A stretch of DNA of 64,000 nt, from IMG/VR virus record IMGVR_UViG_3300024520_000047, positions 124,001 through 188,000 of that record; one strand, given 5' to 3'. The notes under the pieces were generated by a model. The model worked only from the letters and a program-made list of their open reading frames with translations. It had not been told where the DNA came from and ran no database searches. A program made the position numbers and the translations under genes. This stretch comes from a virus. Of this stretch, positions 9,896 through 61,214 are shown one piece after another (position 1 is the stretch's first letter; each line of letters opens with the position of its first letter).

Positions 9896-10648
9896 TTAAA
9901 TATTTTCTTCCTCATCTTCATTATATGCCCAACTTTTCTTGATGTCAGAGTCATTATAATTATCAACCTCCTGTTGTGTTAACACGTATTCATGCTTATC
10001 TTTTTGTTTGGACATCTCGCCTTGTTTCTCATCCCAAAAATCACTTATTTTTTGGTTGAATGGTCCACTATCCAAATATCTAAGGTCTAATTTTTCCTGT
10101 GGTGTTGGTGCACGGTATTTTTCAATTTTACTTTCTAGGTTTTCTACCGATGATACGATATTGTCCATATCGTTTAGTTTAGTCTCTAAATCATCTATTT
10201 TAGACATTAAAGAATCTATACTACCTTTTTGTGTTTCTATATTTTGTTCGAGTGAGTCTGTTTTATCACCAGCTTCTTTAGTCATAGTAACTAATTCCGT
10301 TACATCTAATTCTTCAACATTTTCTGTTGGTTCTTCATCTTCAATGTCATCTCCCAACACTATCTCATCACCAGTATCTGTAGTTTCTTCTTCACCAGCT
10401 AATTCAAATTCATCTCCCGCGTCGTCAGTTTCTTCTTCACCAGCTAATTCAAATTCATCGGTAGTCTCTTCTTCAGTATCATCAGGTTCAGCTAAATTTA
10501 ATTCATCATCTTCTTGTTCTAATTGGAATGCTCTGGTACCGAGCCCTAAAAATTGTTCATTTAATGGGTCAACATAACCATTAATGTTATTAAATCTTTT
10601 AACTTCTTCAGAAATTAAATTCTCGACAATGTTTGTGTGTTTGCTCAT
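9896..10648 (-). CDS. Acidic coiled-coil protein, possible head or core protein
   Basis: I do not recognise this 250-residue protein. It has a helical start (MSKHTNIVENLISEEVKRF), a very acidic middle with a duplicated 15-residue block containing DEFELAGEEE (about 62-95), then a long predicted coiled coil (about 125-170) and a charged C-terminus. Such acidic coiled-coil proteins act as capsid scaffolds in some phages. The start contains LISE, which fits the (L/I)xE cleavage motif of T4 prohead protease and its capsid-targeting leaders. A scaffold or internal head protein is inference. It ends just before a strong terminator. Confidence 0.55.
   Translation of the reverse strand: MSKHTNIVENLISEEVKRFNNINGYVDPLNEQFLGLGTRAFQLEQEDDELNLAEPDDTEEETTDEFELAGEEETDDAGDEFELAGEEETTDTGDEIVLGDDIEDEEPTENVEELDVTELVTMTKEAGDKTDSLEQNIETQKGSIDSLMSKIDDLETKLNDMDNIVSSVENLESKIEKYRAPTPQEKLDLRYLDSGPFNQKISDFWDEKQGEMSKQKDKHEYVLTQQEVDNYNDSDIKKSWAYNEDEEENI
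10382..10459 (-). repeat. Two 33-bp perfect direct repeats, 45-nt period
   Basis: Positions 10382-10414 and 10427-10459 are identical over 33 bp with a 45-nt period, exactly 15 codons. They encode the duplicated DEFELAGEEE block of the acidic protein. Identity at the DNA level, including wobble positions, points to recent slippage or duplication. Confidence 0.85.
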
Positions 10649-26802: not shown

Positions 26803-27291
26803 TTAGTAAACTAGGATACACCTATCAGGTCTAAGGGTTGCAGTAATAGTAGCAATTGCATCATCACTATATCCTAAACTATCAAAGTTAACATCTGTTA
26901 AAAATGTTCCTTGTAAAATCCATTTTTCAACAACTACACCAGTCGGGTCTAACATTTCTAAGTCAATGTCTTTTTTGTATCCCGCAGCATATCCCATTCT
27001 TCCTGTTACAGATTCTGCGTGTAATCTAACCCATTCCATAAGAGCTTGTGCTGCTGATGGTCCGATTGGGTCTCTAAATGAGACACTTATAGTATTCCAT
27101 ACAAATCTACCCGCAACATATGTGGAGGTATTTAAGAAAGGAATTTCTACAGAATTAACTGTGACCTGAGGTCTAGAAGTGCTTTCCACATACCACTCAT
27201 TAATACCCAAAGAAGAAGGAAATCTAAGAATAAACCTATTTTTCTTTTTGGGTTCATACGGTATGGGCATTTTCATTAATAAATCAGCCAT
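26803..27291 (-). CDS. Tail tube protein, gp19-like
   Basis: The 162-residue protein matches the T4 gp19 family: start FILRFPSSLG, a conserved VESTSRPQVTVNSVEIPFLNT segment, then AGRFVWNTISVSFRDPIGPS, and the terminal strand ATITATLRPDRCIL. T4 gp19 is 163 residues. The protein polymerises into the inner tube through which DNA passes. The gene is unusually far from the sheath gene (29954): a kinase, two HAD proteins and an acidic protein lie between them, although sheath and tube genes are usually adjacent. Confidence 0.9.
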   Translation of the reverse strand: MADLLMKMPIPYEPKKKNRFILRFPSSLGINEWYVESTSRPQVTVNSVEIPFLNTSTYVAGRFVWNTISVSFRDPIGPSAAQALMEWVRLHAESVTGRMGYAAGYKKDIDLEMLDPTGVVVEKWILQGTFLTDVNFDSLGYSDDAIATITATLRPDRCILVY

Positions 27292-27432: not shown

Positions 27433-28080
27433 TTATTCTTTAGCATGCATTACAAATAACTTTTCACTTAATTCTTTAGGCAAATCTCTTTTAAGTAACA
27501 TCATTTGTTTTATATTCTTCATATCATCATCAATGAATACTATTTCATCATAACTATGTAATAGTTTTTCTACCACTTCAGCCTTTTTTTCATAATCTGT
27601 TTTAGATTCCAAAGTGGTGGCTCTATTCACATCATTAATAGCAAAAACGTTTTCTCGATTTATACGGTCACCCAAAGGAATTAACTCACCATACTTATCT
27701 TTATACATCAACCAGTCCTTCAAACCCTGATAAACTATATCTTCATTGGACCTTGCGGTTAATATCCCAATTTGATGTCCTTGTTTTATAAAACTATCCA
27801 TTATAGCAAGATTAGCTATTATGGGTTCTGCTTGAGAAATGGACCGTCTAGTTTTTTCTGGGTCAAGAAAATCCCTGTAATCATAATATTTTTTATTTTC
27901 AGGTGTTACATGTTCCAAACCATACTCATAAGGGGTCAATGCTACCTCCTGTTCCTCGTTTGGGAGTTTTCTATAGATATATACCCCAGTGGGTTTTAAG
28001 AGTGTGTCGTCAACATCTAATAAGATTAACCTATTAGTTTTTGCATATTCTATTAAAATTTGTTTTATTAAACTTTTCAT
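27433..28080 (-). CDS. HAD-superfamily phosphatase-like protein
   Basis: The 215-residue protein has all HAD landmarks: the nucleophile motif LLDVDDTLL (Asp22 and Asp24), motif II LTARS (107-111), a lysine around 159-165 and motif IV VFIDDD (181-186). It should remove phosphates, perhaps from nucleic acid ends, as the phosphatase half of T4 polynucleotide kinase does. The first 11 residues, MKSLIKQILIE, form an amphipathic helix ending in L-I-E, like T4 capsid-targeting leaders. It is divergent from the P-loop kinase gene, with a palindromic promoter-like site between them. Confidence 0.75.
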   Translation of the reverse strand: MKSLIKQILIEYAKTNRLILLDVDDTLLKPTGVYIYRKLPNEEQEVALTPYEYGLEHVTPENKKYYDYRDFLDPEKTRRSISQAEPIIANLAIMDSFIKQGHQIGILTARSNEDIVYQGLKDWLMYKDKYGELIPLGDRINRENVFAINDVNRATTLESKTDYEKKAEVVEKLLHSYDEIVFIDDDMKNIKQMMLLKRDLPKELSEKLFVMHAKE

Positions 28081-28100
28081 AAATAATTATAGTTCTACAT

Positions 28101-28116
28101 AATAAATATATTTATT
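28101..28116. promoter_or_regulatory. Perfect palindrome containing the motif on both strands
   Basis: AATAAATATATTTATT is a 16-bp perfect palindrome between the divergent HAD and kinase genes. Each half supplies ATATTTATT to one strand: 7 nt before the kinase ATG and 20 nt before the HAD ATG. It would act as a shared bidirectional promoter or operator. Confidence 0.5.
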
Positions 28117-28123
28117 GTTAGGT

Positions 28124-28777
28124 ATGTTAACAGAACAAATAAATAGAATGAAAAAATTAATGTTGGTTGAAGCCAAAATGGTAACCTTTAGCCAACCAAA
28201 TGGTAATTTTGTTATTTTAGCCGGTGGACCCGGTGCAGGAAAAAGTTACGTTAATCAAAACTTTATAGACTTAAAAGATGTTAAACCATTTAATGTGGAC
28301 AACTATCGTGTAGCGATAGCAAAAAAAATGTGGGGCAGTGATTGGGAAGAAATGATTTCCACCGATGAGGGATATAAAACTATTTTAGATTTAACACACA
28401 CCACTTCTGACCCAAGAAATGTTACAGTTAAATTTTTAAAAAACTTTTTAGAAACTGAAAGAGACCAACCGATTAATGTGGTGTATGACGCTGGTGGGGG
28501 TCAAGAAGAGGTAATGAGAGAAATAATTGGATTGGCAGAAGAAAATGGTTTTATAGTGACTATTGTACATGTAGTTACAGATATAGAAAAAGCTTTGGAG
28601 CGTAACCAACAAAGAGATAGAAGTTTACCCACTGAAATGGTTGTTGATTACCACGATAAAGTTAAATTAGCTGTGGGAAATTTGGTTCCGTTTGTAGATA
28701 ACTATTGGGTTATAGATAACACACAAGATTTAAAAGTAGGTGAGAGAGCAGCCGGAAGAATACACCAGCTTAAGTAG
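28124..28777 (+). CDS. P-loop kinase (zeta-toxin / polynucleotide kinase-like)
   Basis: The 217-residue protein holds Walker A AGGPGAGKSY (about 33-42), a lid region with RNQQRDRS, and a Walker B-like strand NVVYDAG. The overall plan fits zeta-toxin and polynucleotide-kinase P-loop kinases. I chose ATG at 28124; a TTG at 28115 would overlap the palindrome. The N-terminus MLTEQINRMKKLMLVE ends in L-V-E, resembling a capsid-targeting leader. Flanked by two HAD phosphatase-like genes, it resembles T4 Pnk split into separate kinase and phosphatase proteins. Substrate is unknown. Confidence 0.7.
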   Translation: MLTEQINRMKKLMLVEAKMVTFSQPNGNFVILAGGPGAGKSYVNQNFIDLKDVKPFNVDNYRVAIAKKMWGSDWEEMISTDEGYKTILDLTHTTSDPRNVTVKFLKNFLETERDQPINVVYDAGGGQEEVMREIIGLAEENGFIVTIVHVVTDIEKALERNQQRDRSLPTEMVVDYHDKVKLAVGNLVPFVDNYWVIDNTQDLKVGERAAGRIHQLK

Positions 28778-29222
28778 GTATCTTATTAATTTTAATTTTA
28801 ATATCTGGAAAATCATTTAAAACACCTAAAACATCTATAATGTGTTTTTCTTTATCTTCCCAGTACTCTATTTCATTAACTTGTGGATATTTTTTCAATA
28901 ACTCTAAAACTCTTTGACCTTTTGACCTATTACCGTTTTTTCCTTTTATCGGTAAATATTCATCAAAAAAAACTAATCGTGAGTCCAATAAAGTTCTTAA
29001 CTCATCTTCTACATCACTAATCCTATTGGTTAATAGGACCACTTTCGTTTTTCCTACTTGGCTACTTAAATATTCGTTTATATAATCCTCCAACACATCT
29101 TCTTTAGGTTCAAATCTCCATTTTCTTAAACTAAGACTTTCAGGTGTATCCATATATGACCAATCTTCGTCATAAGGTGTTTCAAATAATGTGTCATCAA
29201 AATCAAATAATGATAATTTCAT
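28770..29222 (-). CDS. HAD-superfamily protein of the Swiss-Army-Knife RNA-repair type
   Basis: The 150-residue protein starts MKLSLFDFDDTLFETP with catalytic aspartates at 7 and 9. It has motif II LLTNR (63-67), a lysine in RSKGQR and an acidic motif IV YWEDKEKHI. The DFDDTLFETP...W...W layout is what I recall for the HAD domain of 'Swiss Army Knife' RNA-repair-like proteins. The gene converges on the kinase gene with an 8-nt overlap at their ends. A job in nucleic-acid end repair with the neighbouring kinase is inferred. No ligase gene is in the window. Confidence 0.65.
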   Translation of the reverse strand: MKLSLFDFDDTLFETPYDEDWSYMDTPESLSLRKWRFEPKEDVLEDYINEYLSSQVGKTKVVLLTNRISDVEDELRTLLDSRLVFFDEYLPIKGKNGNRSKGQRVLELLKKYPQVNEIEYWEDKEKHIIDVLGVLNDFPDIKIKINKIPT

Positions 29223-29316: not shown

Positions 29317-29931
29317 CTACCATTCATGACTTTGGTCGTAACCCATGTCACTCTTTAGGGAATGTAAATGAGCTTCTAAATCATCTTCTTTTCTTTTATC
29401 TGCACTCTCATCTTTACCATAATTCTTAGTCTCCCTATCCATAGAATCTTCTTCTAATTCTCTTTGTTTATCTATATTTGAATCTACACCGATAACCTTA
29501 CTTTTTCTACCATCAAACTCATCTCTATCACTATGGTCTATATCTGTATAATCTTCATAAATTTCATCTTCTCTAGATAATCCAGTTAAATCATCATCAT
29601 ATGCACCGACTACCCTAGATGGTCTACCATCATAAGTACTCCTATCTGAATGGTCAATTTTCTCATATCCACCTTCACCACACTCTTCTAATTGTTGATT
29701 AAAATCTTGGGTTGTAAAATTATCTTCCGGTGAAAGATTATCACCCATCTCATCACCAAAATTCATCTCTTCTAATTCTTTATCTTCACCCTCCATATAT
29801 CCCTCAACTAATCTTTTGAACTGAGATTCCGTTAATTTAATGTTCTGTGGTTTTTTGCCATAAAAGGTGGGGAGTACTTGGTTATACCCCATACCCTCTA
29901 CTAAATTTGATTTTTTATATTTTAAATTCAT
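29317..29931 (-). CDS. Acidic repeat-containing hypothetical protein
   Basis: The 204-residue protein is highly acidic and hydrophilic. It has an internal repeat: KIDHSDRSTYDGRPSRVVG at about 91 and DIDHSDRDEFDGRKSKVIG at about 132. Two LVEG sequences near the N-terminus (SNLVEGMG, KRLVEGYM) fit the (L/I)xE prohead-protease motif. It follows the sheath gene with its own promoter-like motif and ends before a strong terminator. Unfamiliar; an internal head or core role is possible but unproven. Confidence 0.5.
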   Translation of the reverse strand: MNLKYKKSNLVEGMGYNQVLPTFYGKKPQNIKLTESQFKRLVEGYMEGEDKELEEMNFGDEMGDNLSPEDNFTTQDFNQQLEECGEGGYEKIDHSDRSTYDGRPSRVVGAYDDDLTGLSREDEIYEDYTDIDHSDRDEFDGRKSKVIGVDSNIDKQRELEEDSMDRETKNYGKDESADKRKEDDLEAHLHSLKSDMGYDQSHEW

Positions 29932-29945
29932 TATTTTCCTTTTTT

Positions 29946-29954
29946 AATAAATAT
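29946..29954 (-). promoter_or_regulatory. Putative phage promoter motif (ATATTTATT)
   Basis: Minus-strand ATATTTATT lies 14 nt before the acidic repeat gene, touching the stop codon of the sheath gene. Confidence 0.4.
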
Positions 29955-32900
29955 TATACATTCTCGAAAGATGCTCCCGTTGGTGTTATTAGGAATTCAA
30001 TATCAATGAATTCAAGGGACCTTGTAGGTTTAATATAAATCTTACCCTCTAATGTGTTCTGGTCAATTAATTGTGGGTCATCAGAAACAACAACTCTAAA
30101 GTCAGTTAATCCTCGTTCTCTTCTAATCGAATCTAATATTGGGTTTACCAAGTCTAAGAATTCGTTTCTAACTTGTTCATCGTTTTGTTCAAACAATAAT
30201 TTAACTGCCACAGCCGAAATAAGTTTTCTAGCTTGTAATAACAATCTTCTAACATTAATTCGGTCAAGTGCGGATTGTCTACTTTGTAGTGTTTTATTAC
30301 CCCAGATAATAGTACCTACGTCTGAATATGTAGCAATTGGATTAATTCTACCTTGATAAAGAGTGTCCCTTTCATCTAAAGTTAATTTCTTTCTAGCTTT
30401 AACCGCGTTTACAATACCTCTAGTATATCCAGCAGATGCAAACCAAGGGAATGAAATATTATCAGTTAATGCGATATTTCTCATAACGTCATATGTTGCT
30501 GGTAACCACACCCTTGTATTATTTTCTTGGTCATTATACTGAACCCAAGGATAATAAGTGGCGGTATAGTTAGAGTCTATTCCAGTAATATCTAAATTAT
30601 CTACCGCTTCAGTAGCTTGGATAATATTAGTAGGGTCTGTCGGGGTTGATACAAATAAATTGTAATCTGGTGTTGTTGTAATATACAACGAATCCGCTCT
30701 TTCACTTTCAATCATATCTATAGTTTCCTCTACTAGGTTACTATTAGTAGTATAATCAATACCGGGAGTCGCGAATACATTTATGTTAACCGCTTCAGGG
30801 TTTCTAAATGTTCTTATACCAAAGTAATAAGAATAATAATCTGTAGTTGCAAAATAACCAGACTCACCCCAAGGTGTTTCACTTAATAATTTAAACGAAC
30901 CATCTCCAGAGGCGTTAGGGAATTGTGTGGAAACACAAGCTCCATTTAAAAATCCTGATTTACCTCTAATATATTGGTCACTATTACTTCTGTATTTTCT
31001 GTAAATATCCCAACCATCGAAACCACCATATGGTGCTAATGTAAATTTCCTAGCTTGAATTTTGTAGTATGGGTCATTCATTGCTGTTGGTTCACTACGG
31101 AAAGCTGCGGCTCCAACCTCGAACTGATTTTCAGTTGCCGTTGTTCCAGTTGGTCCACAATTTTTACATAATGTTGTAATACATAATTCACCCAGTGTGT
31201 TTGAACACGTAGCCCCACTATCTAAGTGGAATCCTGGTGTTATACAACTCCAGTCATCACCATCTAAATCAGAACAAGTGTTAGTGGCGGGTTGTTTTCC
31301 TTTGTATTGGAAGAAGTCATCATCATAAGCTGAAGGTTCACTGTCTGAAAGACCTAAATAAACTCTTCTTATTTTATCACCAGAACTAGTTGTTGTATTA
31401 TCAGCAGATGAACTTAAAGCGAATGGTGGGTTCCATATTGTCTCACCTGGTGTGTTATATGCTGTTTTATAATAAACTGTTGGACTTTGTTGTGCCCCAT
31501 ATTGTCTAGTTGTGTAACCCTCAAAACCACAAGGTACAGCATCATATCTGTTAACATCGAGTTCTTGTTCTGGGTCCACATCTACCATGATGTATTTACT
31601 TCTTAATTCATATTCACCATTAGCTGTCCCAACCTTTACACCAACGTAAGAATTATTGTTAAGGTCCATACTACATCTAGTGAATTTCTCTAACACTGTA
31701 GGTGAAGCGTCTGTGTCGTAATAATCTCTAACTAAAATATCAAATTCTTTTCTTTCAAAACTAATGTTGATGATTGAAATTTTAACTGCCGTATTAGCTG
31801 CATTTCCATCAGCTATGGATATACACCTAAATAATTTATAAACTTTATTACCACGTAACTCAGATACTAAGTATGGGGTAGCTGGTGTTTGCCATTGTTC
31901 CTGATAAAAAGCAATGGTGTTTGTATTTGGTGTTGCTCTATATGCTGGTAAATCAATTAAATTACAATTAAGTCCTTTAATGTACCCTTTATTATAAGCA
32001 TATGTTAACATATTTGGGTACGATTCCTCTACGAATACGGGAACCTTCTCCATATCTTTATCAAATGGTTGTATTCCAAATACTCGTTTTAAATAATTTC
32101 TATTAGTTGGTGACATTGAGGTTTCAAACCTAAACATGTCCCCATCTATATCTGTTACATCAATTCCAAAAGTTGCAAATGGATTTGTAGCTATATCACC
32201 AAAAGTACTTCCCGTACACACCATTGAAACATCAGTAGCTCCAGTGACTTGATACACTGGACCACCAGAAGATAGTGTACTTTCACCCCTAGACCTTAAT
32301 GTTGCAACTACTAAATCATCATAATTACAATAGGTTTGTCCTGTAAATAAAGTATACGAAAAATCTGTAAGACCAGAATACAATGTGGTGTCCGCACTTG
32401 TACTTAAATCTGTGACGTTGGTCGGATTAACACCGATACTTAAAGCAAATCCAGTATAGGAATCAGTTCCTGGTATATTATCGAAGAAAGTGTACAACCA
32501 AGGGTCGTTAAGGTCATCACAATAATCACTACATAGTGAACCTAAGCGAGCTGTTGTGGTTGCACTATATGTTGGATAATATGTTGATGTTATGACTGTT
32601 CCATTATCTTCAGCAAATGCTCCACCCGTTCCTACATAATTACATCCCCAAGAATATGCTATAGATGCTCCAGTTAATGTTTGAAAACATGGTGTTCCTC
32701 CAGTTGCACATGTAAATGGATGTGTAAATGTATTATATGCAGCTTTAAGTAAAACATCTAATTCTGCACTTAAAGTCGTAGTACTACCATCTGTTTTTTT
32801 AATGTTAGTATTTAATTTTGATAAGATTGGGCCTGGTAATGAAGAACCAGCATCTACAAATGAGGTATCACCAAAAACACTCCCACCAGAATAAACAGTA

Positions 32901-33382
32901 TCGATAGTTCCAATATTAACATTAGCTGAACTTCCCGTTGTACTTTCCCAAGTCGTTCCGGGATTACAAGTATCACCACTAAAATCAGCACTAGTTAAAG
33001 TACTCATACACTGAGTTCTTATACTATCACAATCTACATTTCCAATAGTCGTAATGGACCAAGATGGTCCCGCGTCATATCCTGAGTAACCTAATACCCT
33101 AGTTATAAATAATTGATTTGATTGTTGTAAATATGCTTTTGCAATGTATGATAATTCATATTTGGGTATTTGTGTACCTACAAATTTTTCCGGACTAAGT
33201 CCACCAAAGTAGGTTTGGTACTCACCGTATGAACTAATAAAAATAGGTTCAAAAGCAGGACCTTGTAAGGTTTCACCCGCAATACCTAATGTCGTCACAC
33301 CCACACTTTGGGCGACGAAACTTAAATCTTTCTCCGAAGTGTAAACTCCAGGTGAAACAAATACTTTAGACTCTGATGCCAT
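29954..33382 (-). CDS. Tail sheath protein, gp18-like, with large insertions
   Basis: The protein has sheath hallmarks at both ends: FVSPGVYTSEKDLSF near the start, GYSGYDAGPSWS, and a C-terminus containing NVRRLLLQARKLISAV, then RERGLTDFRVVVSDDP and a final DIEFLITPTG. The sheath contracts to drive the tube into the cell. It is 1142 residues against 659 for T4 gp18. The excess is in the front and middle (about 110-800), which is rich in Cys, Thr, Ser and Gly (for example QCMSTLTSADFSGDTC) and probably faces outward. An ATATTTATA motif is 41 nt before the ATG. Confidence 0.88.
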   Translation of the reverse strand: MASESKVFVSPGVYTSEKDLSFVAQSVGVTTLGIAGETLQGPAFEPIFISSYGEYQTYFGGLSPEKFVGTQIPKYELSYIAKAYLQQSNQLFITRVLGYSGYDAGPSWSITTIGNVDCDSIRTQCMSTLTSADFSGDTCNPGTTWESTTGSSANVNIGTIDTVYSGGSVFGDTSFVDAGSSLPGPILSKLNTNIKKTDGSTTTLSAELDVLLKAAYNTFTHPFTCATGGTPCFQTLTGASIAYSWGCNYVGTGGAFAEDNGTVITSTYYPTYSATTTARLGSLCSDYCDDLNDPWLYTFFDNIPGTDSYTGFALSIGVNPTNVTDLSTSADTTLYSGLTDFSYTLFTGQTYCNYDDLVVATLRSRGESTLSSGGPVYQVTGATDVSMVCTGSTFGDIATNPFATFGIDVTDIDGDMFRFETSMSPTNRNYLKRVFGIQPFDKDMEKVPVFVEESYPNMLTYAYNKGYIKGLNCNLIDLPAYRATPNTNTIAFYQEQWQTPATPYLVSELRGNKVYKLFRCISIADGNAANTAVKISIINISFERKEFDILVRDYYDTDASPTVLEKFTRCSMDLNNNSYVGVKVGTANGEYELRSKYIMVDVDPEQELDVNRYDAVPCGFEGYTTRQYGAQQSPTVYYKTAYNTPGETIWNPPFALSSSADNTTTSSGDKIRRVYLGLSDSEPSAYDDDFFQYKGKQPATNTCSDLDGDDWSCITPGFHLDSGATCSNTLGELCITTLCKNCGPTGTTATENQFEVGAAAFRSEPTAMNDPYYKIQARKFTLAPYGGFDGWDIYRKYRSNSDQYIRGKSGFLNGACVSTQFPNASGDGSFKLLSETPWGESGYFATTDYYSYYFGIRTFRNPEAVNINVFATPGIDYTTNSNLVEETIDMIESERADSLYITTTPDYNLFVSTPTDPTNIIQATEAVDNLDITGIDSNYTATYYPWVQYNDQENNTRVWLPATYDVMRNIALTDNISFPWFASAGYTRGIVNAVKARKKLTLDERDTLYQGRINPIATYSDVGTIIWGNKTLQSRQSALDRINVRRLLLQARKLISAVAVKLLFEQNDEQVRNEFLDLVNPILDSIRRERGLTDFRVVVSDDPQLIDQNTLEGKIYIKPTRSLEFIDIEFLITPTGASFENV

Positions 33383-44135: not shown

Positions 44136-46403
44136 TTATGTTGGCACATCTGTTGTTCTTCCACTTAATGCTACATTATAACTTAATGCGTTATTTTCAC
44201 TATTAGGTGCACTACCCACTCTATTGTAAATATCCATACCGGAACTATCACCATTTAATGTGGAGACATTATTGTAAACTAAATTTTGTTCTGTCATACC
44301 GATACTTGTGCCGTCATTTCCGTTTCCTGAAGCGTCTGGAACTGTCCAATCAGTGGAGAATGTAGCTGTACTATCTAACTTCCACCAACCCTTTAAATTA
44401 GCACTTTGTATTATTGTAGTGATTGGAACACCATTATTGTAAAGTTCAGCTACTTGACCACCAGCGGTATCACCAATAGATGAAACCATACCATAAGTTA
44501 AATCAATATCCCAAACTGATATATTGGATAATTTTCCATCGTCACCAATAGTTCCACTTGTAAACCCCCCAAAATATTTACCCACACCGTAGACACCTGT
44601 AGTGTCTGAAGCTGTCGCCCCAATGTATGGTCTTGAATTTACAGATTGTTGTATGGGCCCTGCGAAGGTTGATGTGCCTTGTCCAGCTAATAAACCGTCT
44701 ACAAATATTTTTACACCGTTGGTATTTGTGGTGCCGTCCCATAATGCTAGAATGTGGTGCCACTTATTATCTGGTAAAATTTGGGATGATGTTTGGTCTA
44801 ATGAAAAATTTAAAGAGCCGTCACTATTAAAAAAATAAAAAGTAGCTTTTCTATAACCACTAGCCCAGTCTGCTCCTATATTAAGATTCCAACTTCTATT
44901 ATATGTATAGGTTGAATTATCATTTGAAATTATGGTTTGTTGTACCCCACCACTCCCCGTTATTTGAGTTTTAATCCAAGCTGAAATAGTTATGGCGTTT
45001 TCTACATTTACACCTTGTAATGGTAGTTCAATTATTTTCTTTTCACTTCTATTACCATAATTAAAACATTGTGGATATTCTGAAACGTCATTTGGTATTT
45101 GCCAATTCCCAGAACTATCTACTTCCCAGTTTGCACTCTCAGCCATTCTGTACCAAGCTAAGGGATTTAATAAAGATAAATCAGAAGGTTTTCCGTTATT
45201 GTAAATAGCGGTTACCTCTCCGACTGATAGGGCAGTATCAAAAATACTCACATCATCAATTTGCCCTTCTAAATGCCAATTAACACTATTTGTTAATGCT
45301 CCTATGGTTGGTTCAATGTCAGGATTTGAATAGAGAATTGGACTTACTGCTGCCCCGGTAAACTCTGTTTCATCCACATATAGTTTTACTGCTTCTGAAC
45401 CTGTTGTGCCATCAAAAGTGCCCATCACGTGATGCCACTCCCCATCGTTGGGGGTTATCCCTGTTGATACCGCATTTGAGGATGATGTACCATCATTTGT
45501 ATGAAATACTGTAAACGAAAAACGATTATATCCCGTACCTCTCCATGCAAGTATCCAATTTCTTTGTGATGGAATAGTTGTAGATGTTGTATCCTCACAA
45601 ACTATAACCTGAACATAAGGAGCTGGACCTCCTGTATTTGTTGTAGGTATCTTAACCCACGCAGAAACAGATATTGTAGATGTAATTCCTAATGATGCTG
45701 CGCCACATTGTACACTATTACCAGTACCATTAAATTCTAAAGAATAATTACTGAATTTATCTTTATTTTCATTATTTGGAATTAACCATTGTGGGTCCCT
45801 ATATATTGCATTATCTCCCATTCTATACCAGACAACTGGATTAAAGGTTGCTATTCCTGACGGGATACCGTTACTATAAATTCTTAAAACTTCAGAAGAT
45901 GATAATGCCGTGGTGAATATCGCTACCTCATCAATGTTACCAACAACACCACCATAATTTCCATTTCCTATTCTGTTATTAGCTTCTGTTACGGCACTCG
46001 TTCCGCCACCTGACCCACTACTTGAACCATCTACATAAGCAATCATAGTTGGACCAGGTTCTACCGTTATACATATATGGTGCCACAGCCCATCATCTAT
46101 TCTTCCAGCAGTTGGTAGCCAAGAGTAAACCAAACCTTTAGATGCACTTATGTTTCCATATCCAAATGATATTGTACCACCAAGACCATTTAACAAAGTA
46201 AATCCATAAGGACGAAGACTAAGATTTATTATAGTATCAAAATTCCCCATTGAGGTACTATTATACCACAGACTAACAGTATAAGAATCTCCCGCAGAAT
46301 AATTAAATATGTCTCCTAAGTCTCCAATATCGACATAACCAGTCGTACCGTCAAATTCCATTGAATAGTTATTATAAAAAATTGGTCCGTGTGTTACTCC
46401 CAT
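44136..46403 (-). CDS. Three-domain LamG/ConA-like lectin protein
   Basis: The 755-residue protein has three repeated concanavalin/LamG-like domains. Each opens with a phrase such as YSMEFDGTTGYVDIGD or YSLEFNGTGNSVQCG, continues with ISVSAWVK and DGEWHHVMGTFDGT, then KLYVDE and DDVSIFDTALS. Linkers read LNPLAWYRMGD. Such domains bind sugars in phage tail adhesins. The C-terminus ends with NNALSYNVALSGRTTDVPT, nearly the same tail as in the next two genes. It is the longest of three tandem paralogues (16 nt apart from the next). Confidence 0.75.
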   Translation of the reverse strand: MGVTHGPIFYNNYSMEFDGTTGYVDIGDLGDIFNYSAGDSYTVSLWYNSTSMGNFDTIINLSLRPYGFTLLNGLGGTISFGYGNISASKGLVYSWLPTAGRIDDGLWHHICITVEPGPTMIAYVDGSSSGSGGGTSAVTEANNRIGNGNYGGVVGNIDEVAIFTTALSSSEVLRIYSNGIPSGIATFNPVVWYRMGDNAIYRDPQWLIPNNENKDKFSNYSLEFNGTGNSVQCGAASLGITSTISVSAWVKIPTTNTGGPAPYVQVIVCEDTTSTTIPSQRNWILAWRGTGYNRFSFTVFHTNDGTSSSNAVSTGITPNDGEWHHVMGTFDGTTGSEAVKLYVDETEFTGAAVSPILYSNPDIEPTIGALTNSVNWHLEGQIDDVSIFDTALSVGEVTAIYNNGKPSDLSLLNPLAWYRMAESANWEVDSSGNWQIPNDVSEYPQCFNYGNRSEKKIIELPLQGVNVENAITISAWIKTQITGSGGVQQTIISNDNSTYTYNRSWNLNIGADWASGYRKATFYFFNSDGSLNFSLDQTSSQILPDNKWHHILALWDGTTNTNGVKIFVDGLLAGQGTSTFAGPIQQSVNSRPYIGATASDTTGVYGVGKYFGGFTSGTIGDDGKLSNISVWDIDLTYGMVSSIGDTAGGQVAELYNNGVPITTIIQSANLKGWWKLDSTATFSTDWTVPDASGNGNDGTSIGMTEQNLVYNNVSTLNGDSSGMDIYNRVGSAPNSENNALSYNVALSGRTTDVPT

Positions 46404-46418
46404 ACCTTTCTTTTTTTA

Positions 46419-47945
46419 TTATGTAGGAACATCTGTTGTCCTGCTATTTATGTCCATTTCCATGCTAAGGGCGTTATTGGTACTACCAGGGGCGTTTCCT
46501 GTTCTTCCACTTAGTGGAATATTTACGCTACTTCCATCATTCCCATTTCCAGAACTATCGGGTATTATCCAGATATCTCCTGTCCCACCACTATATGCCA
46601 TATCTCCCAGTCTCCAGTAACCAACAAGGTGGCTCTCCCCTGATAGGTCACTCGGAACACCGTTGTTCCAGATGGCAGTAACTTCTCCGGCTGAAAGGGC
46701 ACTATTAAAGATGGATACATCATTAATCAGCCCCTCAAAAGGTGACCCCCCATTAGTTCCTGACCCTATCCAAACTTCTTCTCCATTAGCCATAGCATCT
46801 GTACCTCCATCCTCATCACCATCTTCTAAACCATCTACATAAATTTTTAAACTTCCAGCCCCTCCACTTGAATCACGCACTCCTACAATATGATGCCAAT
46901 TTCCATCTGTAACAGATGTACTTGATGTTGCGTAAGGATACCCACTATTGCTTAACATTATGGCAACTTGATTGTTAGTTCTTACAAATAATGCAAACCC
47001 ATTCATAACCCAATCTAGACCTCTGGTTACTATCTGTTGTTGTGTTGAGGTGGTGCTTGTTTTTATCCAAGCCGAAATAGTAACATCAGCAGTCATTTGT
47101 AAACTTGCATCATTACCACAATTAACATAATCGTCTGTACCATCGAAACTCATGGAATAATTGCTCACATTATCCTTATTGCTATTTTCTGGCAATAACC
47201 ATTGGGGGTATTTAAATACACCATTATCTCCCATGCGGTACCAAGCAATGGGAGGTATTGGTAAATTTCCTACATTATTTGGTTTTCCAGTTCCATCATT
47301 CCAAGTTGGATATGATACCCAGTTTGGTACAGGATTCCCAAGACTGCTTGGTCTTATTCCGCCATAAATTGTCAATACCTGTGCGGGTGTTAATTCATAG
47401 CTAAATATAGCAGCCTCATCCACTTTGCCACCAAAGGAACTTGCGGGTGTGCCACTATAGTTCATTCCCCCAATATATAAAGAGCCAGAGTTGTTGAAGT
47501 CGGAGCTTGGAGTTCCGTTGTTAGACCTATAGTAAGACACGTCATATCCATCAACATACAATGTCATCCCTGTTTCCGAGCCAGTACCATCGTATGTTCC
47601 TACTATGTGATGCCACCCATTTGTTAAACCTTGGGAAGGACCCCAATAATTGTTGTCCCTTACATACATTGAATGAGAAAAATGGCTATCCAAATTAAAT
47701 ACAAAAAACAATTGATTATTAAAATTAAACTTATACCCCACCTCCCATATAGCGCCTCCCCTGTCCTCTATTTTGCTTATTGGTATATTGTTGACTGTTG
47801 TTGCTGGAATATTTGTCCATAAAGATATTGAAAATGGTGTTGATTTGTTTTTGTCCAATACATTTCCGCAGTCAACAAAATCATCAGTTCCATCGAAACT
47901 CATCGAATATTCATCATTAAAAAGTGGTCCGTATACTAAAGGCAT
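46419..47945 (-). CDS. Two-domain LamG/ConA-like lectin protein
   Basis: The 508-residue protein has two LamG-like domains: first YSMSFDGTDDFVDCGN to DEAAIFSYELTPAQV, then YSMSFDGTDDYVNCGN to NDVSIFNSALSAGEV. Each carries the WHHIVG and LYVDG strands. It ends in NNALSMEMDINSRTTDVPT, the same tail as the neighbours. It should be a carbohydrate- or surface-binding virion protein. It shares a 29-bp identical DNA segment with the next paralogue, evidence of recent duplication or exchange. Confidence 0.75.
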   Translation of the reverse strand: MPLVYGPLFNDEYSMSFDGTDDFVDCGNVLDKNKSTPFSISLWTNIPATTVNNIPISKIEDRGGAIWEVGYKFNFNNQLFFVFNLDSHFSHSMYVRDNNYWGPSQGLTNGWHHIVGTYDGTGSETGMTLYVDGYDVSYYRSNNGTPSSDFNNSGSLYIGGMNYSGTPASSFGGKVDEAAIFSYELTPAQVLTIYGGIRPSSLGNPVPNWVSYPTWNDGTGKPNNVGNLPIPPIAWYRMGDNGVFKYPQWLLPENSNKDNVSNYSMSFDGTDDYVNCGNDASLQMTADVTISAWIKTSTTSTQQQIVTRGLDWVMNGFALFVRTNNQVAIMLSNSGYPYATSSTSVTDGNWHHIVGVRDSSGGAGSLKIYVDGLEDGDEDGGTDAMANGEEVWIGSGTNGGSPFEGLINDVSIFNSALSAGEVTAIWNNGVPSDLSGESHLVGYWRLGDMAYSGGTGDIWIIPDSSGNGNDGSSVNIPLSGRTGNAPGSTNNALSMEMDINSRTTDVPT

Positions 47946-48752
47946 GTCTCTATTTTATTTTTATGTTGGAACATCGCTTGTTCTATCATTTATGGTCATT
48001 CCTGTACTAAGACCGTTATTGGTACTATTTGGTGCATCTCCAATCCGACTATCTACTGCCATCCCGACCGCACTACCATCATTACTATTTGTGGAACTAT
48101 CTGGGACTACCCAAATATCTGCCGTTGCTGCACTATATGCAGTATCACCTATTTTCCAATAACCTACTGGATTTAGTGAAGATAACTCTGGTGTTACTCC
48201 ATTATTGTAGAGGACCATAGCTTGGGCATCCGTTCCGTGGTCGGTATTAAATATAGCTACATGATTTAGACATCCTTCCATTTGATGGGTACCCCAAAGA
48301 TATCTTGAACCTAAGTATAAATCCGTTGTATTATCATACACTATGGGACTTGATACTGTTGTTGTATTTCCTGCCGATACTCCATTTACCCAAGTTTCCA
48401 TTTCTGTACCATTATAGTTACAGAGTAAATGAGTCCATACTCCTAGTGGAACATTACCACTAATTAATGGATTTGAACCTCCGTTACCTAATCTAAAATA
48501 AACTTGTCCAAATGTTGTAATGTGAATAGCATAACCTTTATTGTATCCAGTTCCCCCATCCATTCCTCCTGCTATTGGATAAGGACCACTTGCACCATAG
48601 GTATCTAATTTAACCCATATACTAATTGCTAATGCCGTTGTTGGATAGATACTTGGATTTGTGGGTACTTTAATATAATCATTTGAACTAGTAAAACTGA
48701 GGGAATAATTTGAAGCCTTATCTTTATTGCTATTTTCTGGCAATAACCATTG
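47176..48752. repeat. 29-bp identical segments in two LamG genes
   Basis: Positions 47176-47204 and 48724-48752 are identical over 29 bp and stay similar for about 30 bp more. They encode the interdomain linker NKDNVSNYS/NKDKASNYS region with WLLPENS. A weaker third copy is near 45756-45835. They could serve as recombination sites for domain exchange. Confidence 0.8.
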
Positions 48753-49433
48753 TGGGTCCTTAAATACACCATTATCTCCCATTCTGTGCCACGAAATTGG
48801 ATTAAAAGGTGGGTTGTGTAATTTTATTGGTCTTCCATTAGAATAAAGTGCGGTTATTTCTGTTACTGAAAGAGCCCTATCCCAAGCGGAAACCTCATCA
48901 ATTAATCCTGGATAATACGAAGTTGCAACAACTGTTGTATCAACATAATTTCCTAATGCTCCAATTTTATGTAATCCTTGTGTAGCATAACCACCAGTAG
49001 TTCTCATAGTTGCTGTCACCTCTGGTATAGGATTACCATCAACATAAATGTTCACAGTGTAGTATGTAGTTACACCATCGTATGTGTAAGTGTAAGCTAT
49101 ATGATGCCAACTCCCATCGTTAAGAACCGTAGTTCCAACACCTCCTGTGCCTCCAACACTGCCTACAATTCTAACTACAAAATCTGTAAATGGAGAATTG
49201 TAGGTAGCTATATGTACTGTTTGGTCTAACATTGTCACAGATGTAGAAACAGATACTGGATGCTTTCTTATATATCCCGAATACGCATCTGCTTTTATCC
49301 AAAATGACATAGAGAAATTGCCTAACATAACTGATGGTATTGTCAGGTCTATATCAAGGTACGAATCCGTACCATTGAAATACATAGAATATTCATCTTC
49401 TAATGTCCATAGTGGTCCAACTACTGAGCCCAT
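47961..49433 (-). CDS. Two-domain LamG/ConA-like lectin protein
   Basis: The 490-residue protein has two LamG-like domains (YSMYFNGTDSYLDID with SWHHIAYTYTYDG; YSLSFTSSNDYIKVP with GVWTHLLCNYNGT) joined by the FNPISWHRMGDNGVFKDPQWLLPENS linker region. The C-terminal tail NNGLSTGMTINDRTSDVPT is shared with the two downstream paralogues. Role as a tail adhesin is inferred from fold and context. It starts 9 nt before the end of the upstream fibre gene's spacer, so it is part of the same operon. Confidence 0.75.
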   Translation of the reverse strand: MGSVVGPLWTLEDEYSMYFNGTDSYLDIDLTIPSVMLGNFSMSFWIKADAYSGYIRKHPVSVSTSVTMLDQTVHIATYNSPFTDFVVRIVGSVGGTGGVGTTVLNDGSWHHIAYTYTYDGVTTYYTVNIYVDGNPIPEVTATMRTTGGYATQGLHKIGALGNYVDTTVVATSYYPGLIDEVSAWDRALSVTEITALYSNGRPIKLHNPPFNPISWHRMGDNGVFKDPQWLLPENSNKDKASNYSLSFTSSNDYIKVPTNPSIYPTTALAISIWVKLDTYGASGPYPIAGGMDGGTGYNKGYAIHITTFGQVYFRLGNGGSNPLISGNVPLGVWTHLLCNYNGTEMETWVNGVSAGNTTTVSSPIVYDNTTDLYLGSRYLWGTHQMEGCLNHVAIFNTDHGTDAQAMVLYNNGVTPELSSLNPVGYWKIGDTAYSAATADIWVVPDSSTNSNDGSAVGMAVDSRIGDAPNSTNNGLSTGMTINDRTSDVPT

Positions 49434-49442
49434 AATTTTTCA

Positions 49443-50516
49443 TTATTTTTCTGTTTGTAGTTTATCGACATCTTTTCGTTCTCCTTGTATTAAGTAATAA
49501 CAATGGGGGAGACCATCGTCACAATCCACATATACTTCATTATCTGTAATCTCATCTACATAATGAATACATGCTCTTCCTATGGATGTTAATTGTACAG
49601 TTATGGTAACCTCATCCACTAATTCTTTCCAGTACTCTGGTAAAGTAATAACATTATCATCTTTTAATTCTCCCCTTACATAAATACCGTGTTCTGGACC
49701 TTCTAAAACTCCGTGAATTAGTTTCTTCCCTTTTTTGGTTGGGTGGTCAATTTCAAAAGACTTAGTGGTGGCCGCTAAGTGACCGTCTATGGTGATATCA
49801 CCATCTATACGGGTTACCCCAGAGACGTGTAAGGTGACTGCAGTAGATGGGTTAGCAGTCCCAATTCCTACAATACTATTTATCATATGAATGGCACCGT
49901 ACCTATATGGGGTACCACCACCAGTAGGTGCATTACAAATAGCGAATCTTTCTACGGTCGCACCACTTAATGGGTGGGCGTCGTCGGGGTCTCCTACCCC
50001 ATCCCAAGTAAAAAATCTCCAAACTTTAAGGTCATTGTTTGTAGTGGGAAGTGCCCCCATTAAAGCAAAATCCACACCTCTGGACATATTACCGGAATTT
50101 CCTACCTGTACTTTTAATCCACTTCTGTTGTCCAGTCCCGCAAAATCCTCCATATAAGGAAAAAGATGGACACCTTCTTTAACTGTAGCCCCGTCGGTAA
50201 GTCTAAAATTTATGGCAGTCAGGTTATAACTACTACTGTATTGGGGTACAGAGATGATGCCCGCTGGAACTGAGGAAGATTGGATTTGGATATAGCCGTC
50301 ATTATTTAGTGTTCCAAACTCTATTTTACCCCTTAGTCCATTTGGTGCACTACAAAAAACTGATGTACCATCATTCTTTACTGTCAATAAATCTATTGCT
50401 GGAGAATCGTTATTGGTTATCTTTAAAGCGTTGGTCGCGGAGGTGTTATCGTTGGTTTGTATGGTGGAATCACCAAAACAATTAAACCCGTGTTTAATTA
50501 CAAATTCGTTTGCCAT
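49443..50516 (-). CDS. Tail fibre-like protein with conserved C-terminal attachment/trimer domain
   Basis: The 357-residue protein starts MANEFVIKHGFNCFGDST, typical of collagen-like/fibre shafts with repeated 'IKNDG' strands. The C-terminus carries HPTKKGKKLIHGVLEGPEHG then IYVRGELKDDNVITLPEYW and VDEVTITVQLTSIG. This block is common at the ends of tail fibres in marine T4-type phages. It is the first gene of the block downstream of a promoter-like motif 53 nt upstream. Confidence 0.7.
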   Translation of the reverse strand: MANEFVIKHGFNCFGDSTIQTNDNTSATNALKITNNDSPAIDLLTVKNDGTSVFCSAPNGLRGKIEFGTLNNDGYIQIQSSSVPAGIISVPQYSSSYNLTAINFRLTDGATVKEGVHLFPYMEDFAGLDNRSGLKVQVGNSGNMSRGVDFALMGALPTTNNDLKVWRFFTWDGVGDPDDAHPLSGATVERFAICNAPTGGGTPYRYGAIHMINSIVGIGTANPSTAVTLHVSGVTRIDGDITIDGHLAATTKSFEIDHPTKKGKKLIHGVLEGPEHGIYVRGELKDDNVITLPEYWKELVDEVTITVQLTSIGRACIHYVDEITDNEVYVDCDDGLPHCYYLIQGERKDVDKLQTEK

Positions 50517-50569
50517 AATTTTTTCTTTTTTTCACTGTCCAAAAAGAAGTCTCTTGTTGGTTATATCTA

Positions 50570-50578
50570 AATAAATAT
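50570..50578 (-). promoter_or_regulatory. Putative phage promoter motif (ATATTTATT)
   Basis: Minus-strand ATATTTATT 53 nt before the 357-residue fibre gene, in the gap after the four coupled lectin genes. Confidence 0.4.
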
Positions 50579-50582
50579 TTTG

Positions 50583-51353
50583 TTATAAGTTAAATCTAGA
50601 TTTTAAAGCATTATAATTTTGTTGTACTTCATTATATGATAATGCACGGTCATAAATAAAAGTGGGGCCCATGTAACCACGCCAATAAGAATCGGCACGA
50701 GTTCCCATCCAAAATTTAATAAATTCGTTTCTACGAGCCATATTTCCAGTCGAAATAGCGTCATACATTGTTTCTTCATTAAAGTATTGGGTAAAATGGG
50801 TGGGGGTGATAACTGTACAATAATAATTCCATTCCTCTAAAACGGTTTCTAACCTACTCCACGCAATCGTTCCCCATGCCACGGTCCCACAACCAACTAT
50901 ACCAAGTGGACACTGACCACCAACAAAAGTTCTTACTGAATTTGTGGATGTCCCAGCAGAATACCAAAATTGTTGGTTTAAAACCCCGTAGGCAGCTCCC
51001 CCGTTTGAAAATCCAAATATGGTAGCAGCACCATCCGCTTCCGTAGATTTAGCAAATGTACAGATAGTGTAGGAATGAATATCGTAAGTGGCACCCGTTA
51101 CTTTTCCCATATTCCCACTAAAATCTAGAAATTCAATGTAATCATCAGTCCCATCAAATAACCAACTTCCTCCTCCTTCAGGACTATATCGTGGATATGG
51201 TTGGGAACCTGAAGGTCCTTTTAATGTGCCCATAAATCCACCCACTAAACTATGACAAGTGGAATCACCACTAATATAGGATTTAGGGTTGGCTGCGTCT
51301 ACGGCTAATATTAATCCGTCGGTTATTATTGTGGGAGAATAATGAAAACTCAT
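50583..51353 (-). CDS. Single-domain lectin-like protein (paralogue 4)
   Basis: The 256-residue protein begins MSFHYSPTIITDGLILAVDA and ends EVQQNYNALKSRFNL, the frame shared by four tandem genes. The middle is a ConA/LamG-like jelly roll with GSWLFDGTDDYIEFLD. It is the most diverged of the four in its centre. Its start overlaps the upstream gene's stop by ATGA, so ribosomes may pass directly from one gene to the next. Probably a virion adhesin; ligand unknown. Confidence 0.7.
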   Translation of the reverse strand: MSFHYSPTIITDGLILAVDAANPKSYISGDSTCHSLVGGFMGTLKGPSGSQPYPRYSPEGGGSWLFDGTDDYIEFLDFSGNMGKVTGATYDIHSYTICTFAKSTEADGAATIFGFSNGGAAYGVLNQQFWYSAGTSTNSVRTFVGGQCPLGIVGCGTVAWGTIAWSRLETVLEEWNYYCTVITPTHFTQYFNEETMYDAISTGNMARRNEFIKFWMGTRADSYWRGYMGPTFIYDRALSYNEVQQNYNALKSRFNL

Positions 51354-52027
51354 AATCCAAATCTTGATTTTAAAGCATTATAATTTTGTTGTACTTCAGA
51401 AGCGGAAAGTGATACATTATATATTTTAACATTCGATATATTACCTTTTGAGTAATTACTATTGTTTACATACCCAATAGTTAAGCTGTCTCCAATGTTT
51501 GAACTAAGGGTAGCGGGGACACCAACTTGGGTGTCAACTAACCCACCATCAATATATAATTTTAATGTACTACCCCCTTCATAGACACCAACAAAATAAT
51601 GCCAATTAGTGTCATAGGTTAATGAATAACTAGCACTGGTATTAGCAGCTCCATTTCTTGCACCAAAATAAACAGAACCATTTAACCACCAATATAATAC
51701 TACTTTGTCAATAGCAGCATCCTGAATTGTATTCCCACCCAACACTTCTCCTGAACCATTTTTTTTACCCCAAAATGAAAATGTGAGAGATGTAACATTA
51801 TTTATTTCTGTTATTGGAGTACAAGATATATTACTATTACTTCCATTAAATACCCATGAACCATAAAATTGTGGCTCAAAGGATACTGATGTGGTGTTAC
51901 CTGTAATATAACCGGTTAAGCTTGTTATGTGTGTATCACCAGACGTGTAAGAAACTAAATTACTAGCATCCATATAAAACACTAAACCATTATTCACTAT
52001 ATTTGGACCTCCAGTTACATTACTCAT
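51350..52027 (-). CDS. Single-domain lectin-like protein (paralogue 3)
   Basis: The 225-residue protein has the family plan: IVNNGLVFYMDASNLVSYTSGD, then GSWVFNGSNSNISC, TSLTFSFWGKK, DTNWHYFVGVYEGG, LKLYIDGGL, then EVQQNYNALKSRFGL. It is a clear LamG_3/ConA-like jelly roll. It is coupled on both sides by 4-nt ATGA overlaps. Divergence between the paralogues is largest in the loops, the expected sugar-binding surface. Confidence 0.75.
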   Translation of the reverse strand: MSNVTGGPNIVNNGLVFYMDASNLVSYTSGDTHITSLTGYITGNTTSVSFEPQFYGSWVFNGSNSNISCTPITEINNVTSLTFSFWGKKNGSGEVLGGNTIQDAAIDKVVLYWWLNGSVYFGARNGAANTSASYSLTYDTNWHYFVGVYEGGSTLKLYIDGGLVDTQVGVPATLSSNIGDSLTIGYVNNSNYSKGNISNVKIYNVSLSASEVQQNYNALKSRFGL

Positions 52028-52806
52028 AATCCATATGTGTATTTAATTGCATTAAAATTCTGCGTTACTTCGTCTTGGTTTAACACTCTACTATAAAATC
52101 TTAAAATCGGTATTCTTCCCTCGAAACCATATCTTTCACCCCCCAAATACGGACTTGGGTCATCACCGTCATAAGTACCAATATATAATGGATTATAAAA
52201 CACATTTCTAATAGTTGCGATTAAAGGTTGTGTATTGGTTAATGCTCCATTTAAATATATATTAAATTCTAAATTCTCATAATCTATTGTCATAATTACG
52301 TGAGTATAAGCATCACGTGTTATGCCTGTAGCGGTACCTATCGAGTCAATACCCGTAGTATATGACTGTTGCCAAAAAATGTTATCTGGTCCCCCCCCAT
52401 CTGTTAAGTAAACCCACCAGTACCCAAATGAAGAACTTTGAGGCCCTCTATTATATACTCCAGGCCACGAAACAACCCCAAACTGGTTTGAGTTGTATAT
52501 CACAAAATCAGAACTATGACTTCCAGATAAACTAAGTGAAGACATATCAGTAAATTTTACCCAATTATTATTTACTGTAGGGTAATTTGGTATCGGATTA
52601 GGTAATACAATACTACCATCGTCGATATAAGACGTAAGTCCTGTTGTAGAACATATGCCAGCTGCAAAAGCTGGGTCTATAATGTTGTAAACGTTTAATG
52701 GGTCGTCAAATGGTTTTAATACACTTGCTCGTTTTGTGGCATCCACATTAAAAACCAAACCATCACTTACTATGTCTGTCGTCGGCGACCCTATTGTTCC
52801 ACTCAT
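52024..52806 (-). CDS. Single-domain lectin-like protein (paralogue 2)
   Basis: The 260-residue paralogue has a longer middle section (WPGVYNRGPQSSSFGYWWVYL) but keeps the shared start IVSDGLVFNVDATKRASV and the end RVLNQDEVTQNFNAIKYTYGL. The core strands (THVIMTIDYENLEFNIYLNG) fit the ConA-like fold. Both junctions are ATGA overlaps. The altered C-terminal motif (NFNAIKYTYGL) makes it the most distinct at that end. Confidence 0.7.
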   Translation of the reverse strand: MSGTIGSPTTDIVSDGLVFNVDATKRASVLKPFDDPLNVYNIIDPAFAAGICSTTGLTSYIDDGSIVLPNPIPNYPTVNNNWVKFTDMSSLSLSGSHSSDFVIYNSNQFGVVSWPGVYNRGPQSSSFGYWWVYLTDGGGPDNIFWQQSYTTGIDSIGTATGITRDAYTHVIMTIDYENLEFNIYLNGALTNTQPLIATIRNVFYNPLYIGTYDGDDPSPYLGGERYGFEGRIPILRFYSRVLNQDEVTQNFNAIKYTYGL

Positions 52807-60049: not shown

Positions 60050-60502
60050 ATGCCAGATAAAAATTTATATGATAGAACATTTGAGGTTCCTGATAAATGC
60101 ATTGAACATATAAAAAATGCATTTACAAATTTTAATGGTCCAAAAACAACAGAAGGGTATGAACGTGCAAAAAATATTTTAAAAAATCCAAATATTAGTT
60201 TACCCCTATTAAAAAAAATAAATAACTTTTTTAGAAATGAAGAAGAAGGGACTGCACCATATAATTTAACTGGTGGTGATTACGGTAAAAAAATATTTCA
60301 AAAAATGGAGGACCAAGTACGTAGAGGTGAGTCTTCTTCACGTAAAAATAAAATGAGAGGTGGTATGATGAATACCCACTATAAAGAACATGAAAAGGAC
60401 CAAAATGCTAACCCTACGGGTGTAAATGTCCCAAAAGTAGATAGCGTCCCCGCATTAATCGAACAAATAAAGAAAATTAAAAAACTTATAAACTATTTAT
60501 AA
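60050..60502 (+). CDS. Hypothetical basic protein
   Basis: This 150-residue protein immediately follows the previous gene (stop and start abut). It has a helical front (CIEHIKNAFTNF; YERAKNILKNPN), a basic middle (KMEDQVRRGESSSRKNKMRGG) and a C-terminal helix (ALIEQIKKIKKLINYL). No family recognised. The basic nature contrasts with the acidic first gene, so the two could bind each other or DNA; this is inference only. Confidence 0.5.
   Translation: MPDKNLYDRTFEVPDKCIEHIKNAFTNFNGPKTTEGYERAKNILKNPNISLPLLKKINNFFRNEEEGTAPYNLTGGDYGKKIFQKMEDQVRRGESSSRKNKMRGGMMNTHYKEHEKDQNANPTGVNVPKVDSVPALIEQIKKIKKLINYL
60492..60500 (+). promoter_or_regulatory. Putative phage promoter motif (CTATTTATA)
   Basis: Plus-strand CTATTTATA overlaps the end of the 150-residue gene and sits 12 nt before the next ATG, with AAAAAAAAAG between. 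Confidence 0.4.
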
Positions 60503-60851: not shown

Positions 60852-61214
60852 ATGAAACTTTACAACACCCTACATTCACTTATATTAGAAGTAGCTTCTA
60901 GGGAAGACACCAAACAAGCTATTGAAAATAAATTAAGGACACTTATTTATTATGAAGGTGATACCGTTAATAACCCAGGGTGGAGAACAATCGAACCAGT
61001 TTGTGCTGGGACAACAAAAAGAAATAATCCAGTTCTTAGAGCATGGCAAACAGAGGGGGCTACAGATACCGAAGTTCCTGGTTGGAAATTTTTTAGATTG
61101 GATAGGATTAGAAATTGGCAACCGACACTGGATGAGTTTACTGAAGCCCGTCCTGGTTACAACCCAAACGGCGATAAAAGTATGAATCAAGTGTGGTTCA
61201 ACGCAAAATTTTAA
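60852..61214 (+). CDS. Stand-alone WYL-like domain protein
   Basis: The 120-residue protein resembles an isolated WYL domain: KLRTLIYYEGDTVNNPGW, then RTIEPVCAGTTKRNNPVLRAW, then GWKFFRLDRIRNW. The W-R-x-IEP, LRA and F-R-L-D-R-I elements are those of WYL proteins, which sense nucleic acids or nucleotides and often control defence genes. There is no DNA-binding partner domain. The N-terminus MKLYNTLHSLILE ends in I-L-E, like a capsid-targeting leader. Function is unknown. Confidence 0.6.
   Translation: MKLYNTLHSLILEVASREDTKQAIENKLRTLIYYEGDTVNNPGWRTIEPVCAGTTKRNNPVLRAWQTEGATDTEVPGWKFFRLDRIRNWQPTLDEFTEARPGYNPNGDKSMNQVWFNAKF

Follow-up and report, generated by a model that had tools for sequence, protein, structure and literature searches.

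In bacteriophage T4, the prohead protease gp21 cuts after L/I-X-E, the internal proteins are directed to the core by propeptides of 10–19 residues, and a C-terminal cut occurs in Alt as well (PMC9026906). Giant phages of the phiKZ type and SPN3US are reported to process many head proteins with a prohead protease and to pack proteins for ejection (PMC7411985, PMC10052503); the phage investigated here, a giant phage as well, is likened to them by description, and it differs in the T4-type gp23 and S77 genes of its lineage.

The window, i.e. the whole stretch of 64,000 nucleotides analysed, corresponds to G000:C1:124001-188000 of the 245,874-bp viral record G000, the source of which is a giant, T4-like phage. 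According to the capsid protein, its nearest named relatives include Flavobacterium phage immuto (a cultured relative), Microcystis phage Mel-JY01 and Rhodothermus phage RM378, next to uncultured giant phages; relatives were sampled by means of a single capsid protein and a small number of window proteins, and gene starts were taken from a simple gene caller of our own. An earlier note on this DNA had proposed capsid targeting by T4-style leaders and had looked to a prohead protease gene outside the window. Indeed, G000 encodes an S77 (gp21-type) prohead protease at 213,471-214,181 (profile search, PF03420, E 3.6e-24) beside the genes for the scaffold and a gp23-type major capsid protein, and the protease is present in 13 of 16 related records, several of which are fragments. 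The acidic protein of 560 residues encoded between the S77 protease and gp23 genes was taken for the scaffold from its position and composition. The major capsid protein shows the cut-site logic of the leaders too: the aligned homologues that extend far enough retain LINE, the next residue is A or, in one sequence, Q, and a variable linker then leads to the FETVVFPIIRRVFSKLLANDIVSVQAM region. This LINE|(A/Q) position corresponds to the place where T4 gp23 is cut.

Leaders ending in (L/I)xE had been reported for several unrelated window proteins, and all five are present as quoted. The full genes comprise 27433-28080 (minus strand) for the HAD protein, 28124-28777 (plus) for the kinase, 60852-61214 (plus) for the WYL-like protein, 9896-10648 (minus) for the acidic coiled coil and 29317-29931 (minus) for a further acidic protein; in the latter, SNLVE is located at residue 12, KRLVE at residue 43. 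The relevant features are as follows:

10607..10648, minus strand: leader MSKHTNIVENLISE of the acidic coiled-coil protein, predicted cut after E14
27433..28047, minus strand: predicted mature HAD-type phosphatase with DVDDT motif (PHROG 415, Pfam DUF2608)
28048..28080, minus strand: leader MKSLIKQILIE of the HAD protein, predicted cut after E11
28124..28171, plus strand: leader MLTEQINRMKKLMLVE of the kinase, predicted cut after E16
28172..28777, plus strand: P-loop kinase in its predicted mature form, polynucleotide-kinase / zeta-toxin fold group (Pfam AAA_33, Foldseek)
28770..29222, minus strand: second HAD-type gene of the cassette, without leader, starting directly with MKLSLFDFDDTLF
29803..29931, minus strand: N-terminal region of the acidic protein, (L/I)xE sites at E12 and E43 (class-B profile)
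60464..60499, plus strand: C-terminal tail QIKKIKKLINYL after LIE in protein 60050-60502, possible C-terminal class-C element
60852..60890, plus strand: leader MKLYNTLHSLILE of the WYL protein, predicted cut after E13
60891..61214, plus strand: stand-alone WYL domain (Pfam, Foldseek)

The HAD/kinase cassette is situated between genes taken for the tail tube (26803-27291) and the sheath (29954-33382), both named by eye from their likeness to annotated immuto genes. Elsewhere in the window, at 44136-53507, a row of tail-region proteins contains repeated SMSFDGTDDYV-like stretches and appears to be mutually related.

The alignment of N-termini in relatives, seven sequences each for the HAD, kinase and WYL proteins, revealed fixed P3 (L/I) and P1 (E) positions around a varying P2. 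In the HAD orthologues, L9 and E11 are the sole invariant residues within the first 15 positions (P2: I, N, K, R, N, S, K), and the leaders diverge strongly (MKSLIKQILIE, MPYRIKKHTLSE, MIKNISNRFILKE); in the kinase orthologues, L14 and E16 are the sole invariant residues of the leader region. Leader swapping is seen in the kinase, where L028/L161 have MKNLIRNALREELLLE and L128 has MRNLIKKILREETTPTLLLE in place of MLTEQINRMKKLMLVE; the leader called in L022/L023 is just MLLE. The WYL orthologues have M1-K2-L3 and E13 invariant, with [LI]xE at the same position in 7/7 (P3 being I or L; P2 L, N, V, N, T, L, L), while in the coiled-coil family ISE, IAE, LKE, LEE and LEE precede a similar KRFNNIN-like core. 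Altogether, an N-terminal (L/I)xE leader of about 7–20 residues is present in all orthologues of the HAD (7/7), kinase (7/7), WYL (7/7) and coiled-coil (5/5) proteins. The acidic protein retains LxE at its second site in 6/6 orthologues, its first site being absent in one, and the second HAD-type gene of the cassette has the leaderless start MKLSLFDFDDTLF in its orthologues likewise.

Bare occurrence of (L/I)xE says little, since chance alone would place the motif in roughly one gene out of four. In the whole phage, [LI]xE with E at residue 8-25 occurs in 72 of 219 genes against expectations of 57±5 (internal windows) and 49±6 (shuffled N-termini), too small a difference for motif counting alone to be accepted as proof; about 15–23 genes lie above chance, and individual cases therefore need further evidence. 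Many matches in the genome are probably due to chance, including that of ribonucleotide reductase, which is among the 13/49 window genes with the motif. That the motif nevertheless goes beyond chance follows from its conservation in orthologues, the swapping of leaders, the repeated leader classes free of control matches and the contrast with other lineages. Among the 1339 proteins of 11 related genomes or contigs, N-terminal (L/I)xE was found in 441 versus 298±12 expected from internal windows, and the tighter pattern h..hh.E in 117 versus 38±6; crAss001, phi14:2 and phi38:1 (partly read, 183 proteins) had no (L/I)xE excess (39 versus 37.7±5.4), the other-lineage controls consisting of these three Bacteroidota phages only, with the absence of S77 taken from lineage and annotation.

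A survey of 83 families yielded conserved [LI]xE columns with variable middle in 6 of 1526 N-terminal versus 3 of 4785 internal columns (Fisher p 0.008), a test that is modest alone and in which one of the six N-terminal columns is the capsid KVI[KR]E, not a predicted cut site. Its clearest leader cases are two families encoded outside the window. In the DLAVWFG family, a small basic domain, 12/12 leaders (7–27 residues) end in (L/I)xE; in the second family, the part starting with ATSDSSGG is preceded by leaders like MNKKINE and MLNQLIKKVLLE. Both families are fused in G001, with VLNE before the inner DLAVWFG domain, an arrangement that looks like a polyprotein cut between its modules. The DLAVWFG domain was also observed alone after a short leader, as well as in the form of an inner module after VLNE (L113:15588-16304, L139:9570-9947). 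In a terminase-adjacent family, 2 of 12 members were without (L/I)xE at the junction, and among the replication and tail families whose N-terminal boundary is sharp, the majority had no (L/I)xE there; family 65 was missed by the automatic boundary detector because the boundary was set too early.

The leaders fall into recurring classes. The class-B type KKIIRLTESDLTRIVKRVIKE gave 37 profile-HMM matches at E<0.01 in 11 genomes, 34 of them N-terminal, and none in reversed or shuffled sequences at this threshold; in the same genomes, class A (MKxLIKKILRE) gave 13 matches at E<0.1, all 13 N-terminal. Class C (EQINRMKKLM) had 14 matches at E<0.1, eight N-terminal and the rest mostly at C-termini. 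No control sequence matched classes A and C at E<0.1, and these controls outweigh the E-values, because the profiles were refined on their own matches. The HAD leader matches the class-A HMM, and residues 27-49 of the acidic protein match the class-B HMM (E 5e-8). In viral contigs, the class-B leader type IRLTESDLTRIVKRV occurred 53 times; its distance from the Met was four residues in every case, and the proteins that carry it form 34 unrelated cargo clusters. It is invariably followed by [I/L/F/M]xE, with P1 Glu in 53/53, P3 I/L in 50/53 and nine kinds of residue at P2, positions that lay outside the search pattern. The corresponding DNA pattern matched 48 viral stretches and was absent from 84,980 bacterial and archaeal genomes; homologues outside phages with the same N-terminus, which the earlier note had named as counter-evidence, did not appear within two pattern scans. 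Of 21 of the class-B contigs, 11 contain the S77 protease; the rest are mostly fragments, but one contig of 223,671 bases is without it. Literature searches for the LTESDL-type leader or for capsid targeting in Bacteroidota phages returned nothing relevant, and a term search of a paper on Baltic Flavobacterium phages yielded no virion proteomics. An acidic, repeat-rich protein of 836 residues (G000 81,166-83,676, plus strand) has an internal element resembling class C and, close to its C-terminus, one of class B.

The kinase leader resembles the C-terminal tail of the putative scaffold, which in all 25 compared relatives ends in a LIESKTYENPQFLRMKDLMSKL-like sequence, and the class-C leader matches this tail (hhalign P 3.4e-5, one comparison); the resemblance suggests that some leaders may copy a scaffold-binding helix. 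When the C-terminal windows of 2152 proteins were ranked by the class-C pattern, the scaffold and the family of protein 60050-60502 came out on top. The latter protein ends in ALIE|QIKKIKKLINYL, and its tail is perhaps a C-terminal targeting propeptide, because most orthologues keep (L/I)xE right before it. On inspection, the C-terminus of 60050-60502 (ALIEQIKKIKKLINYL) was similar to both the scaffold tail and the kinase leader; the scaffold-like protein at L005:7686-9368 (minus strand) and its relatives have the class-C-like C-terminal tail LIESKTYENPQFxRMKDLMxK.

As in the IPI, IPII, IPIII and Alt proteins of T4, the arrangement consists of a short, here putative, N-terminal propeptide on unrelated proteins with an L/I-X-E site for removal by a gp21-family protease (PMC9026906). 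The T4 likeness claimed for the leaders holds for the cut-site logic; by eye, the sequences of classes A, B and C appear to differ from the T4 capsid-targeting sequence (CTS), class A being loosely similar to T4 MKTYQEFIAE. Further differences from T4 are the larger number of candidate cargo proteins per genome, the possible C-terminal versions and the different phage lineage. Packing of proteins via leaders is known for T4; here it seems to be far more extensive.

Distant homologues of the kinase are present in about 200 phages, mostly Straboviridae, and six of these were read (P-KP2, RB43, AS-szw, vB_Mm5, vB_VmeM-32, Phynn). In 6/6 of them, (L/I)xE directly precedes the core, and the leaders are MKSFKxF-like (MKSFKQFTESTLTE, MKSFKDFVSLDE, MTLKSFKEFITLDE); identity is about 23–28%, and whereas the leader is of class C or A in the present lineage, it looks T4-like in these phages. 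At 4/6 loci, the gene that comes next codes for a HAD-like protein. Such T4-family kinase homologues with MKSFKxF-type (L/I)xE leaders are located at L168:1468-2307, L169:1010-1843, L170:992-1843, L171:995-1834, L172:968-1831 and L173:902-1759. They are mostly annotated as hypothetical or zeta toxin and may be unrecognised internal head proteins.

With regard to the cargo, the kinase matches Pfam AAA_33 (5.9e-10), and its structural model (mean pLDDT 80, core mostly 80–90, leader helix about 50) has a predicted P-loop kinase fold closest to polynucleotide kinases: Foldseek ranks 1-5 are Clostridium thermocellum polynucleotide kinase structures (best 9.9e-9; TM 0.52–0.57 by query length), with zeta toxins and 6PF2K coming next. 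A search of bacterial genomes with two peptide patterns confirmed no kinase relatives. The HAD protein matches PHROG 415, the phosphatase part of polynucleotide kinase (E 9.5e-9), and Pfam DUF2608, with no match among named phages and none in the PDB by sequence; the second HAD-type gene (28770-29222) matches HAD_SAK_1 below cut-off. Judged from these matches, kinase and HAD protein look like a split end-healing pair. The WYL protein reached 21.0 bits with Pfam WYL, under the curated cut-off of 21.8; its AlphaFold model (mean pLDDT 82) matched the WYL Sm-like fold, and the top 30 PDB matches in Foldseek are all WYL proteins (PafBC, BrxR, DriD, CapW; best E 1.9e-3). In the model, its 120 residues form one N-terminal helix and a beta domain only, without a helix-turn-helix, so that of the earlier designation as a WYL-like regulator the fold can be retained for what is a lone domain without a DNA-binding part. 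Elsewhere, leader-like starts were observed on a protein with M23 peptidase and phage lysozyme domains (L008:14485-15807, minus strand) and on a T4-type lysozyme (L010:14737-15318, plus strand).

We consider it likely that the leaders serve as propeptides for capsid targeting, with cleavage by the S77 prohead protease, and that their cargo is packaged and injected; the interchangeable tags, each terminating in a cutting site for the head protease of this phage, suggest packing of enzymes into the head for injection. The capsid-targeting interpretation of the earlier note is thereby supported, the protease gene and the N-terminal alignments both being in its favour. From the sequences we infer scaffold binding, cleavage, packaging and injection in the following order. 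During head assembly, the short, mostly helical N-terminal element, perhaps C-terminal in a few proteins, would bind the prohead scaffold core and take its protein into the prohead; the S77 protease would then cut after (L/I)xE, by which the leader is removed and the mature protein freed. The cargo, among it the polynucleotide-kinase-like kinase, the HAD phosphatase and the lone WYL domain, would remain in the mature head and enter the host together with the DNA.

A more far-reaching version, to which we give limited credence, is a general packing system with many unrelated genes per genome and exchangeable tags of several classes, some copied from the scaffold tail and some C-terminal. It would deliver an injected first-strike kit composed of nucleic-acid end repair, peptidoglycan hydrolases and lone WYL domains. 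BrxR and CapW are regulators of anti-phage defence, and the lone WYL domains might interfere with WYL defence regulators of this kind.

It is unlikely that the leader proteins, instead of being injected, are components of the prohead core or scaffold that share the fate of T4 gp67 and gp68, which are cut into pieces and disappear prior to DNA packaging. Such a fate would suit the acidic proteins 29317-29931 and 9896-10648 with their several sites or acidic coiled-coil composition, and the T4 core proteins are indeed fragmented and mostly exit the head (PMC9026906), but a folded kinase, a HAD phosphatase, a lysozyme and an M23 peptidase are implausible as disposable scaffold. For the acidic protein 29317-29931, the reported (L/I)xE sites are present, but it may be a core component instead of cargo.

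Still less probable is a role of the leaders as assembly or docking helices for tail, baseplate, host compartment or protein turnover, with the Glu being a binding residue and not a cut site. The position of the HAD/kinase cassette between tail tube and sheath genes would agree with docking, as would the two leader proteins elsewhere in the genome that are peptidoglycan hydrolases, often tail-associated enzymes; however, a free P2 flanked by fixed P3 and P1 has the look of a protease site, the pattern agrees with the conserved site of the capsid protein, and very short leaders, e.g. MEQQLNE|, scarcely have room for a helix. Pure coincidence of a common tripeptide with common short N-terminal helices, which would leave the five proteins with nothing in common, is very improbable: the motif is found in about a quarter of genes at random, but chance would hardly account for fixed P3 and P1 beside a free P2 in orthologues, near-identical leaders on 34 unrelated cargo clusters, shuffled and reversed controls without matches and other-lineage phages without excess.

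Should the leaders indeed function in capsid targeting, one could read from sequence which proteins are injected by a large group of uncultured giant phages: The tag would flag packaged proteins among hundreds of unknown genes and provide a candidate list for early host take-over and counter-defence. It would also supply new address tags to load proteins into phage heads, and the tag class resembling the scaffold tail leads to a testable idea of the binding partner of the tags.
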